Shown: one piece after another, positions 49,496 through 56,303 of the stretch | How positions within the stretch are numbered: position 1 is the stretch's first letter | Layout: each line of letters opens with the position of its first letter | Source of the DNA: a virus | Reading direction: 5' to 3' (one strand) | Virus record (IMG/VR): IMGVR_UViG_3300035670_000060 | Coordinates: 49,654-113,653 of that record | DNA length: 64,000 nucleotides | Made by a program: the position numbers and the translations under genes | Notes under the pieces: generated by a model | The model's input: only the letters and a program-made list of their open reading frames with translations | Databases searched by the model: none | Told to the model about the DNA's origin: nothing

Positions 49496-50426
49496 TTCCG
49501 TTTACCAATCCGTCGTATTGTTTTAAAAGTGTGTTTATATTCCACATTGTATAATATTTTTCAATAGGTGTCAAGCCTTTTGCTACGATTTCTTTTATTG
49601 GTGTTTTTTCAATATTAATGTCATCACTAATAATATGCCTAAAAAAATTTGATGTGTTTACACCGATAGGTTTTCTTGCTGACAAGGCTCTATCTGTTGA
49701 TCCACTGACACCAACGGCGTCAAAATGCTCATAAAAGTAAATGTTTATATCGTTACCATTTAACCACTTGATTAAATCATACTCAGAAAATTTTTCAATT
49801 GTGTATATAATTTCGACGTTTTTTTTCGCTAACTTTTTACACTGTTCTATAAGATTGATGATACCTTGATCCTTAAGAGGAGTATAAAATCCTGGAGAAA
49901 AATGGACATTTAATTTCACATATTCGTCAAATTGTTGGTTTATAATTTTTATAATTGTTGGTAAATTTTTATTATGTTGTCCGATACCGCTTGTTCCTAT
50001 CGTCAATATATCACTCGGAGGAAAATATTGAATGTCGTCATATATAACAACTGGTCTAACTCCTGGATGAACTTTTTCGGTGTCTGGTGCAGTCACATCA
50101 ATCGTTATATAATGTTCTAGATTATAAAAATGTCGAGTTTCAAATCTACCTTCGTGTCCAATAATCATAAACTGTCTAATCGAAGTGTTATCAATTGTTG
50201 ATTGAGTTAACCATCGCATAGTTGATGGATGCCAATTGTAAATGACTAAATCAAGATTGTATTCTTGAATCAGTTTTTTCATTTCGATTTCGCTATCACA
50301 TGTAAGTAATATGTATCGATTTTGGTTCGACTGTTTCAACATATTATGCAAATTTCTTGCATAATAATATATGCCACAATCTTGCTTTGATCCTGTAAGT
50401 ATGCCAACAATTTTCATTTTTTCCAT
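49479..50426 (-). CDS. GT-B glycosyltransferase (GT4-like)
   Basis: A 315-residue protein. N-terminal Rossmann-like KMKIVGILTGSKQDCGIYYYARNLHNML is the acceptor domain opening of GT4 enzymes. DILTIGTSGIGQHNKNLPTIIKII starts the donor domain. A late DINIYFYEHFDAVGVSGSTDRALSARKPIGV matches the EX7E region with one acidic residue kept. Overlap with the GT-A gene upstream by 13 bases indicates coupling. The donor sugar is unknown but may come from the GDP-mannose pathway encoded upstream. Confidence 0.78.
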   Translation of the reverse strand: MEKMKIVGILTGSKQDCGIYYYARNLHNMLKQSNQNRYILLTCDSEIEMKKLIQEYNLDLVIYNWHPSTMRWLTQSTIDNTSIRQFMIIGHEGRFETRHFYNLEHYITIDVTAPDTEKVHPGVRPVVIYDDIQYFPPSDILTIGTSGIGQHNKNLPTIIKIINQQFDEYVKLNVHFSPGFYTPLKDQGIINLIEQCKKLAKKNVEIIYTIEKFSEYDLIKWLNGNDINIYFYEHFDAVGVSGSTDRALSARKPIGVNTSNFFRHIISDDINIEKTPIKEIVAKGLTPIEKYYTMWNINTLLKQYDGLVNGNEISH

Positions 50427-53454: not shown

Positions 53455-54000
53455 TCAATATGCTAAACGTGCACCTACACCAAAAGCCTTTTCTTCAATG
53501 TCTTGAAATGATCGACTGGCCGAAACACTTACACTTAGTGCTTTTGTAACTGGCATACTTATACCAAGAAATGTTACAGTCTGTTTAGGATTACTGTCAT
53601 CCCAATTGATACGTGTTTTAGCACCTGCAAATCCCCATGCAGGTCCTAATGGCATTCCTGTAGATAGACCGACAAGCCCGTAAGTAAAGTTTCCATCCAC
53701 TTTACCATTGAATCCGTTATCGTAACCGACTCCAAAATATGTATTGACTCCTTTGATCAAGTCCTTACCCACAGTTCCTTCTACACTGTTCAACATACCA
53801 CCTTTATCAAATACAGCAGTGCGAACCTGTAGACCTAGATTCAAACCAGCCATATCTTTACCAGCCCTAAAATATTGTGCAGTGCTTTCTGCTTTGTTCC
53901 GAGTATCTTTAACTTGGTCAACGTCGAAACTTACAAAGTTTGCTGCTTTTGCGGAACCAAATGCTAAAGCCAAACATGCTGCAATTAGAGTTTTCTTCAT
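53455..54000 (-). CDS. Phage-encoded outer membrane beta-barrel protein
   Basis: A 181-residue protein with a clear signal peptide (MKKTLIAACLALAFGSAKA, cleavage after AKA at 19). The mature part consists of alternating-residue strands (NTYFGVGYDNGF, NFTYGLVGLSTGM, ALSVSVSASRSF) and ends GVGARLAY with a terminal aromatic residue, the usual insertion signal of outer membrane barrels. About 160 mature residues would suit a barrel of around eight strands. Start ATG at 54000 has AGGAG 7 bases upstream. It lies just behind the tmRNA terminator. Superinfection exclusion or altered outer membrane is a guess. Confidence 0.78.
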   Translation of the reverse strand: MKKTLIAACLALAFGSAKAANFVSFDVDQVKDTRNKAESTAQYFRAGKDMAGLNLGLQVRTAVFDKGGMLNSVEGTVGKDLIKGVNTYFGVGYDNGFNGKVDGNFTYGLVGLSTGMPLGPAWGFAGAKTRINWDDSNPKQTVTFLGISMPVTKALSVSVSASRSFQDIEEKAFGVGARLAY

Positions 54001-54016
54001 ATCATCTCCTATGTTA

Positions 54017-54054
54017 ATAAAAGTCGGTTGATTCTGTTGCTAAGTTCAACCGAC
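54017..54054 (-). terminator. Terminator after the tmRNA
   Basis: A perfect 9-bp stem on the minus strand (GTCGGTTGA 54054-54046 with TCAACCGAC 54031-54023) followed by TTTTATT. It closes the tmRNA transcription unit just before the outer membrane protein gene. Confidence 0.8.
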
Positions 54055-54059
54055 AAAAC

Positions 54060-54194
54060 TCCGCACTAGAGTTTAGGCTGCTAGTGCAAAACGCTCATCA
54101 TTTGCTGCGTTTATTTTGGTGCTTGATTTACGGTCATCGCCTACCGAATTGTCCACTCTCATACTCTTTGCCCCGTCGAAACCTGTACAGGCCC
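54060..54194 (-). ncRNA. ssrA: Permuted tmRNA, coding piece (5' domain and tag)
   Basis: Minus strand from 54194: acceptor 5' strand GGGCCTG, then the hallmark CAGGTTTCGACGGGG of tmRNA 5' domains, a PK1-like region, and the tag codons GCA GCA AAT GAT GAG CGT TTT GCA CTA GCA GCC TAA (54108-54073), giving AANDERFALAA. A 7-bp stem (GCACTAG/CTAGTGC, 54063-54069 with 54081-54087) puts the stop codon in its loop, as in known tmRNAs. GGGCCTG pairs with CAGGTCC of the acceptor piece, with G3-U wobble. The 3' end near 54060 is estimated. Confidence 0.93.
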
Positions 54195-54362
54195 TTCAGA
54201 AAGAATCTTTTTCCTATTTTTCTTATACTCACTAAATGTCATTCTATATTGAGCATTAGGATGCTTTAAATATTCTTCATACAGTCTTCCAGATTTTAAA
54301 GCGTTAATTAACCCAGCCTTCTTTCTTTTACTGGTAAACTCTTTTGAAGTTTCGTTGTGCAT
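54159..54362 (-). CDS. Possible 67-residue protein inside the tmRNA intervening segment
   Basis: A frame from ATG 54362, with AAGGA 7 bases upstream, encoding a lysine-rich protein: MHNETSKEFTSKRKKAGLIN, then ALKSGRLYEEYLKHPNAQYR and MTFSEYKKNRKKILSEGPVQ. The first 56 codons lie between the acceptor and coding pieces of the permuted tmRNA, and the last 11 run into the coding piece. The sequence looks protein-like and has a good start site, but overlap with the mature RNA makes expression conditional on the precursor not being processed first. No family recognised. Confidence 0.5.
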   Translation of the reverse strand: MHNETSKEFTSKRKKAGLINALKSGRLYEEYLKHPNAQYRMTFSEYKKNRKKILSEGPVQVSTGQRV

Positions 54363-54375
54363 TTAAAATCCTTTT

Positions 54376-54436
54376 TGGTGGACCTGGGCGGAATCGAACC
54401 GCCGTCCGAAACATGTTTCTGTTCGCTTCATACAAT
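54376..54436 (-). ncRNA. ssrA: Permuted tmRNA, acceptor piece (T arm and CCA end)
   Basis: Minus strand: T arm GGCGG-TTCGATT-CCGCC (54403-54387), acceptor 3' strand CAGGTCC (54386-54380), discriminator A and encoded CCA (54378-54376), preceded by TTTCGGAC as in bacterial tmRNA 3' domains. It is transcribed before the coding piece, so the gene is circularly permuted and the mature RNA is two-piece. The 5' end near 54436 is estimated from the -10 box at 54443-54448. Confidence 0.92.
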
Positions 54437-54442
54437 CATAGG

Positions 54443-54448
54443 ATTATA
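54443..54448 (-). promoter_or_regulatory. -10 box of the tmRNA promoter
   Basis: TATAAT on the minus strand about 7 bases before the predicted RNA start. No good TTGACA lies at 16-18 bases, but AATTTG is 16 bases upstream. The upstream half lies in the end of the MazG-like gene. Confidence 0.5.
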
Positions 54449-54804: not shown

Positions 54805-55475
54805 GCATTCTCCCTATCGAATTGCCTACGGTATTCACGGAATAATTCTATGTAATCGTTCCGCTTCTTAATAAAGACTTGTGGCATGTCATCCTCTACT
54901 GCAATGACAATAGCAAGTCTTGAAACTGGTATTCTTGTGCGTTCTTCATACATTACAGCGTATGCAGCACATTGCATAAAGTAGTTGGTAATCCATTCTT
55001 CTTGCTTCGGTTTACTTGATGTTTTAAAATCTATAATTGATAACTTTCCGTCAAATTCTCCAATGCAGTCTACACGACCTGCAACTCGGAGATGGTGTGA
55101 GTAGAGTGGTATCTCAATTGCATGGATGTTATTAATGCGTTCATCAAGAATTGGTTGGACAGTCTTGAACATTGCTACCGAAGTTGGCATATGCCCTTCA
55201 GCCCAATTCACTTGATTGTTTAGATAGTTCTCACAAAGCGTATGGATTCTCGTACCACGCCTTGCTGCTTTCGTTGAAATGCGGTTTGCTTCTTCTTCAC
55301 CAACACGCCTACGCCATTCAAGAATACCTTCTTTACCATGCATTCCTGTAATGGTTGTAACCGACGGATACGCTTCTCCGTCTGGTGTCAGATAGAATCG
55401 TTTACCATTGATTGTTTTAGTTTGTAGATCATAATCAATATCAACGCCTACATGATTAAAGGTAACTTGTCTCAT
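54801..55475 (-). CDS. PD-(D/E)XK exonuclease (RecB/Cas4-like)
   Basis: A 224-residue nuclease: RRGTRIHTLCENYLNN (helix with catalytic-side His), GRVDCIGEFDGKLSIIDFKTSSK with the D...D-x-K active site (about 134-156), and the following YFMQCAAYAVMYEE (Q motif). It starts with a short beta domain carrying TPDGEAYPSVTTITG. It is probably used in phage recombination, repair or host DNA breakdown. TAATG overlap with the previous small gene. Confidence 0.88.
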   Translation of the reverse strand: MRQVTFNHVGVDIDYDLQTKTINGKRFYLTPDGEAYPSVTTITGMHGKEGILEWRRRVGEEEANRISTKAARRGTRIHTLCENYLNNQVNWAEGHMPTSVAMFKTVQPILDERINNIHAIEIPLYSHHLRVAGRVDCIGEFDGKLSIIDFKTSSKPKQEEWITNYFMQCAAYAVMYEERTRIPVSRLAIVIAVEDDMPQVFIKKRNDYIELFREYRRQFDRENA

Positions 55476-55714
55476 TAGAAGGTGTTGATGTTACCTCTTG
55501 GATGTGCAGCCTTTGCTTTCTGTAAGACTTCACGAAAGCCTGCGTCTGGCTTCCTCAACCCTAGGCGAACTGGATCGCCTAGAGTCATACCCAAGTGTGT
55601 GATTTCATAATCAGGATTAGCGTCAAGCCATTCCTTCTGTTCGGAGATTTTCATCATTCGTTCGATGGTCTCTCCCGTGGTTTTGTTCCGAAAGTTGTAT
55701 GTTGGCATTCTCAT
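55475..55714 (-). CDS. Small FmdB-like conserved phage protein
   Basis: A 79-residue protein (or 77 from the second ATG at 55708): MPTYNFRNKTTGETIERMMKISEQKEWLDANPDYE. The start resembles FmdB-type zinc ribbons but lacks cysteines, a form common in T4-like phages. An AGGG site precedes 55714. The first 92 bases overlap the end of the upstream gene in another frame. Function unknown. Confidence 0.74.
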   Translation of the reverse strand: MRMPTYNFRNKTTGETIERMMKISEQKEWLDANPDYEITHLGMTLGDPVRLGLRKPDAGFREVLQKAKAAHPRGNINTF

Positions 55715-56303
55715 ATAGCCCTAATGATTCATTGATCTCAACCATTCGCTGGAGACAACCTTCAGTAAACCATGAAGGAATCTGTCGTTTTGTCCATCTA
55801 GCAAATCGCACCTTATGTTCTATATAGTAGCGCCGATAGGAATCAATTGTCTGGCCAGAAATTTTACAATCATCAGGCATTGCAAGTGGTGGCTCCGAGA
55901 ATTCCACGTTCTTCGGTATGTTCATAGGATTAAAAAATAACGCATCTTTCAATCCCGAAGACTCAATCAAGTGTATTTTTTCATAACGAAATGTATACTC
56001 ATCAAGAGTGCAACTAAGCAAATCATGTAACCAACGATAATTCCATACAGATTTCCGAACCCAAACCGCTGAAGGATGATTGATATGTGATGCTTTATAG
56101 AGCATAGATTCTCTATCATCATTTAACCTCCATCGTTTTATTTTACGGTTGTTGCTGGTAACATCTATATATTCGTGCCCGTCTAGCATCCGATGTGCTG
56201 TCGATAACAATTGTGCATACTCAATAACCATTTTTACAACATGTTTATCGCAATGCTGCCTTGCACACGATTCTGGATTTGATGATAGAAAAAAGATGTT
56301 CAT
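55623..56303 (-). CDS. Conserved phage protein with CDKHVVKM motif (Pyr_excise-like)
   Basis: A 226-residue protein starting MNIFFLSSNPESCARQHCDKHVVKM, then EYAQLLSTAHRMLDG. This opening occurs in many phages and resembles the pyrimidine-dimer glycosylase (Pyr_excise) annotation, but I do not see a proven catalytic site. Conserved-looking NHPSAVWVRKSVWNYRWLHDLL and RRYYIEHKVRFARWTKRQIPSWF follow. Its last 30 residues overlap the next gene. The ATG overlaps the upstream stop. Confidence 0.72.
   Translation of the reverse strand: MNIFFLSSNPESCARQHCDKHVVKMVIEYAQLLSTAHRMLDGHEYIDVTSNNRKIKRWRLNDDRESMLYKASHINHPSAVWVRKSVWNYRWLHDLLSCTLDEYTFRYEKIHLIESSGLKDALFFNPMNIPKNVEFSEPPLAMPDDCKISGQTIDSYRRYYIEHKVRFARWTKRQIPSWFTEGCLQRMVEINESLGLYENANIQLSEQNHGRDHRTNDENLRTEGMA

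Follow-up and report, generated by a model that had tools for sequence, protein, structure and literature searches.

A small protein gene nested in the intervening sequence of a T4-like phage's permuted tmRNA

Introduction

Two-piece tmRNAs have been described in phages, among them that of phage Melnitz, with 53 two-piece forms among 133 unique phage tmRNA structures (PMC9004378). The covariance model of the permuted form, RF04321, derives from a second study, which lists 79 bacteriophage tmRNAs of any form in its database (PMC11915505). That study also reports two situations in which additional sequence lies within a tmRNA gene: a group I intron tmRNA that encodes a homing endonuclease, and single intervening sequences (IVSs) that hold a tRNA-Ala gene or a repeat.

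Here we analyze a permuted tmRNA in a 64,000-nt stretch of viral DNA (hereafter the window; positions 49,654 to 113,653 of IMG/VR record IMGVR_UViG_3300035670_000060). The locus shares with RF04321 and the betaproteobacterial family RF01850 its gene order, acceptor, T arm, CCA, resume motif, tag and 3' hairpin. However, the bacterial members that we surveyed have short IVSs, with a coding one unseen, whereas the window IVS is a protein gene. Like the window, Melnitz (PMC9004378) and Pelagibacter phage Mosig combine a permuted tmRNA with a T4-like genome, and the tmRNA of Mosig has, as here, a homolog of the window's exonuclease just ahead of it. Unlike the window, Mosig has a short, non-coding IVS, and the report on Melnitz (PMC9004378) describes a riboswitch but no IVS gene. 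The intron form likewise places a protein gene inside a tmRNA, from which it is removed in the mature RNA (PMC11915505). That form, however, is self-splicing, sits in the T loop and encodes an endonuclease, whereas the window type has no intron, is predicted to undergo tRNA-type processing and belongs to a group of phage IVSs with diverse cargo that is not endonuclease-like. The IVSs with a tRNA-Ala gene or repeat also bring foreign sequence into a permuted IVS, but they are isolated cases and not protein genes (PMC11915505). We found no report of a protein-coding IVS in open-licence full text, and as far as checked, nested protein genes are new for permuted tmRNA.

Results

The window encodes a permuted two-piece tmRNA of betaproteobacterial type

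A first-pass annotation had proposed a circularly permuted two-piece tmRNA of a T4-like phage at this locus and had suggested a covariance model and a tmRNA finder allowing permuted forms as the check. Run on the window, these tools agree with the proposal: RF04321 (tmRNA_permuted) matches 54437-54073 on the minus strand with 118.7 bits (gathering cutoff 47, E 1.5e-22), RF01850 (beta_tmRNA) matches 54490-54038 on the same strand with 103 bits (gathering cutoff 84), and ARAGORN calls a permuted tmRNA. Both covariance models, being over cutoff, confirm the gene order from T arm and CCA to 5' domain. The 113.6-kb record is indeed T4-like by its proteins, which include a gp32-type SSB (E 7e-114), a baseplate wedge protein, a tail tube cap protein and terminase.

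All features of the gene lie on the minus strand. According to the RF04321 alignment and the sequence, the tRNA-like 3' piece (54376-54437) consists of a linking stem, the T arm, the acceptor 3' strand (54386-54380) and an encoded ACCA (54379-54376). Between the CCA and the acceptor 5' strand lies the IVS (54195-54375), which the mature tmRNA is predicted to lack, with an RNase P cut expected just 5' of the acceptor 5' strand GGGCCTG (54188-54194). The two acceptor strands, GGGCCTG and CAGGTCC, form 7/7 pairs including the G3-U, and the positions given at first pass for the CCA end (54376), the start of the 5' domain (54194) and the 181-nt gap between them were right. The second piece, delimited by RF04321 (54073-54194), carries the tRNA-like 5' domain and the mRNA-like part, ending in the tag AANDERFALAA* (54108-54073), which is read from the resume motif AAATAAAC-GCA. 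The tag reported by ARAGORN, DDRKSSTKIN..., was rejected, as per the resume motif it starts too early; the two frames agree from AANDERFALAA onward. A group I intron tmRNA was likewise rejected, the T loop being uninterrupted and the intron families having no match in the window at Rfam cutoffs.

The flanking signals proposed earlier held in part. Upstream, a -10-like TATAAT (54443-54448) aligns with the UAuAAU of the RF01850 consensus, but no promoter with an acceptable -35 and no full sigma-70 match was called there. Downstream, at the end of the RF01850 match, the 9-bp hairpin (54023-54054; 54054-54046 paired with 54031-54023) exists, but it was not called as a terminator and its 14-nt loop contains an AACAGAA that recurs in relatives. 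Since the ACAGAA motif is found downstream in 87 of 168 relatives and the hairpin drew no terminator call, it looks like a structural element of the family and more than a terminator alone. The next gene downstream (53455-54000, minus strand) has a product whose start resembles a signal peptide (MKKTLIAACLALAFGSAKA) and which may be an envelope protein.

No SmpB match was found in the 113.6-kb record, and host SmpB is therefore presumed. Judged from its sequence, the tag fits a Burkholderiales host, without proving it. The role first put forward for this RNA, phage-supplied ribosome rescue or tagging, is a reasonable hypothesis. It could instead be a decoy that disables host trans-translation, with the IVS gene a passenger, and there is a precedent in phage DS6A, whose tag-less tmRNA inhibits the endogenous tmRNA in E. 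coli (PMC11915505). We consider this very unlikely: the window tmRNA retains the G3-U acceptor, the encoded CCA and the resume motif, its tag ends in LAA, and ANDERFALAA is a common tag in Burkholderiales, encoded by 29 of 200 genomes.

Permuted tmRNAs are frequent in phages

The novelty implied at first pass for a permuted tmRNA in a phage was overestimated, as such RNAs are published (PMC9004378) and common among contigs sharing the window's T arm. In IMG/VR, 115 stretches carry its exact 25-nt T-arm/acceptor sequence, and of 116 loci scanned, the window's own among them and nearly all of them viral contigs with this T-arm sequence, 105 were given a tmRNA by ARAGORN. Permuted tmRNAs also occur in phages of Pseudomonas, Xanthomonas, Stenotrophomonas, Alcaligenes, Pelagibacter and Synechococcus, and most of the records fetched for these phages lack a tmRNA annotation. 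Eight cultured phages carry such unannotated permuted tmRNAs, with structured, apparently non-coding IVSs (L392-L394 and L396-L400; OQ383211, AP018399, KU245542, PQ569993, OQ427096, KU682439, OK149171 and ON331942). At eleven phage loci, ARAGORN reports unusually long tags of 28-30 aa that share a VKVSMGRGFRFG-like stretch; this may be a conserved tag of that length or come from the program reading the wrong frame (L014, L021, L034, L040, L041, L054, L056, L069, L076, L077 and L097).

We further surveyed bacteria, where permuted tmRNAs over cutoff were found in 94 of 299 Pseudomonadota and 13 of 250 Burkholderiales genomes. Their model spans are mostly 190-260 nt, versus 365 in the window, under strict search filters that very long IVSs could escape. 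Three of the longest, G313, G397 and G522, were fetched, and among the bacterial IVSs that were read no coding one was seen; G522 was read by ARAGORN, and G313 holds a structured non-coding alphaproteobacterial IVS. In Cupriavidus pinatubonensis HN-2 (G001, locus L261), five strong matches spread over two chromosomes and another replicon suggest mobile extra copies.

The window IVS is a conserved protein gene

The 181-nt gap, treated at first pass as an empty spacer, turned out to be a conserved gene. A Shine-Dalgarno (SD) sequence AAGGA (54369-54373, minus strand) lies 6 nt before the ATG of a 67-aa open frame (54159-54362, minus strand), a layout found in at least 95 phage IVSs. The frame runs for 56 codons inside the IVS and then for 11 codons into the tmRNA 5' domain; 29 of 95 such IVSs, the window's included, have an ORF that runs on like this, so the end of the protein is uncertain in this class.

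Homologs of the protein are found within other IVSs (L118, L015/L119 and L120) and as free-standing genes (L121-L125 and L419-L423). Compared with L118, the window ORF shows 0.38 synonymous (pS) and 0.06 non-synonymous (pN) changes per site, a dN/dS of 0.11; compared with L015, 64% of residues are retained despite saturation at synonymous sites. On these sequence comparisons, the ORF is under purifying selection at the protein level. Between the window and L118, nucleotide identity is 88% in the ORF and 73% in the mature tmRNA, the opposite of how a spacer behaves. That the IVS is a neutral spacer in an ordinary phage permuted tmRNA, its ORF a chance open frame, is in our view extremely improbable. 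Phage and bacterial IVSs are mostly short and non-coding, and long spacers are tolerated, as G313 illustrates, but such a spacer would not combine this dN/dS and saturated synonymous change with an ORF conserved above the tmRNA itself, with free-standing homologs, and with a thioredoxin in the same slot elsewhere.

In three contigs (L419-L421), the free-standing homolog sits between homologs of window 55623-56303 and 55475-55714. As this is a neighboring gene interval, the gene may have reached its place in the window tmRNA by a move of about 1.3 kb, its direction being inferred.

Searches of Pfam, PHROGs and PDB sequences with the window protein gave no significant match, phage records gave insignificant matches only, and AlphaFold, run on eight sequences, returned a low-confidence model (pLDDT 59). 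A likeness to ArfA, suspected by eye, found no support, as Pfam gave no match even with E allowed to reach 5, a search that weak similarity could escape.

Coding IVSs are widespread and diverse

Across phages, we found at least 95 non-redundant permuted tmRNAs in which an ORF with SD and ATG fills the IVS, representing at least 42 protein families. These counts are lower bounds on a set selected for SD and ATG, as the search patterns demanded both after the CCA. Among 66 non-redundant permuted tmRNAs picked solely for their T-arm sequence, an ORF spans each of the eight IVSs that reach 125 nt, a count that takes in L015 and L039, whose SDs are weak. Among the cargo are a thioredoxin (L226, Pfam E 4e-21), a PGDYG protein above the Pfam cutoff (L173) and a 124-aa protein (L038/L089), the most common kind being hydrophobic microproteins of 22-25 aa. 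Three IVSs (L377, L378 and L334) hold two consecutive ORFs, that is, a small operon within the tmRNA gene. An apparent 2.1-kb IVS (L115) was discarded as the product of spurious pairing.

Selection is also apparent beyond the window family: the L338 and L351 ORFs share 69% of nucleotides versus 88% of residues. For a few family pairs a signal of selection is absent; some pairs, L131/L390, L050/L039 and L356/L370, are too similar to tell. Most IVSs longer than 150 nt have a higher ORF coverage than their dinucleotide-shuffled versions; for ORFs below about 30 codons, shuffling on its own gives no significance. No coding IVS was found in cultured phages, the IVSs examined there being non-coding, nor by tblastn of two non-window IVS proteins against phage records.

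The 3' ends of the listed coding IVSs follow a common pattern. A UGAU-type leader is present as TGAT in 89 of 95, and 45 of 95 ORFs terminate at the UGA of the UGAU that directly precedes the mature 5' end. The ORF stops within the IVS in 66 cases and runs on in the 29 mentioned above, most of which, the window with its exactly 56 codons before the cut site included, have an IVS that ends on a codon boundary. Such run-on ORFs raise the idea that IVS proteins are tied to trans-translation: a cut inside the ORF would leave a non-stop mRNA, and the tmRNA from the same precursor would tag its product, in a feedback loop like that of ArfA. Regulation of ArfA by tmRNA through a non-stop mRNA is established (PMC10107115). 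We regard this account of the IVS proteins as unlikely, since 66 of the 95 ORFs end before the cut, the cargo ranges in function from thioredoxin and PGDYG to membrane microproteins and the window protein matches no Pfam family, ArfA included.

The IVS behaves as an exchangeable cassette

L089 and L104 carry different IVSs at the same slot, a 398-nt coding one and a 119-nt structured one, respectively. Alignment of these closely related phages gives 91% for one flank and 98.5% for the other and breaks off no more than a few bases from the IVS borders. A similarly clean replacement separates another closely related pair, L015, of the window family, and L106. The slot is probably favored in that anything between the CCA and the UGAU leader is tolerated, because that sequence is removed from the tmRNA.

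Many phages share the 119-nt structured IVS with hardly any change (GAAAACTCTTTGAGTAGCTACAC...; L104 6791-6909, L018, L048, L049, L106 and others), and it is this allele that has given way to coding IVSs in L089 and L015. In L104 it matched no Rfam family of its own.

A conserved helix joins the IVS ends and is predicted to bury the SD

In the predicted fold of the window, the two ends of the IVS form a 10-bp helix that adjoins the acceptor stem. Its 5' arm (54365-54374, minus strand) contains the SD and its 3' arm (54200-54209, minus strand) would act as anti-SD; arms and register are conserved in relatives. Over the 95 listed coding IVSs, 93% of cells are paired, versus 80% (maximum 82%) with shuffled partners, and the helix columns covary, showing several pair types. 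The predicted unpaired fraction of the SD in coding IVSs is 0.04 in the precursor, 0.57 in the nascent RNA before the IVS 3' end is made and 0.13 in the excised IVS; the corresponding values for the window are 0.02, 0.35 and 0.08. The helix is also present in non-coding IVSs, where it is even stronger, so it may serve processing, SD burial being a mere side effect.

Discussion

Altogether, we think it probable that this T4-like phage carries a permuted two-piece tmRNA of betaproteobacterial type whose IVS now serves as an exchangeable cassette that houses a small protein gene. This reading draws on the tmRNA anatomy, the selection on the ORF, the SD-burying helix and the clean IVS swaps, all of them features of sequence.

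The arrangement of the locus outlines how one transcript could serve two ends. The precursor would run from T arm, acceptor and CCA, through an IVS with SD and ORF, to the mRNA-like piece with the tag. While the IVS is transcribed the SD would be free, so ribosomes could load on the nascent RNA. Once the IVS 3' end and the acceptor 5' strand emerge, the helix and the acceptor stem would close, shutting off initiation and presenting tRNA-type processing sites. Processing would then release the two-piece tmRNA, which would use host SmpB, together with the IVS RNA. With an ORF nested in a transcript that is also processed, both a ribosome-rescue RNA and a small protein would be obtained.

More tentatively, the precursor may be strictly dual in function, acting as mRNA for a swappable small protein and then, through closure of the SD-burying helix and tRNA-type processing, as rescue RNA, so that translation and tmRNA maturation are mutually exclusive. 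We hold this for possible but doubtful in its full form, which adds for the run-on class that the cut turns the message into a substrate of its own tmRNA. It is speculation that the non-stop message left by such a cut could be rescued by that same tmRNA.

Placed inside an RNA gene, IVS genes are easily missed. The link between translation and tRNA-type processing on a single RNA becomes directly testable with these loci. The segment discarded in making a permuted tmRNA can itself be a gene, in dozens of unrelated versions across phages, and this suggests one reason why phages keep permuted tmRNAs: they offer a tolerated cargo slot on an expressed transcript.
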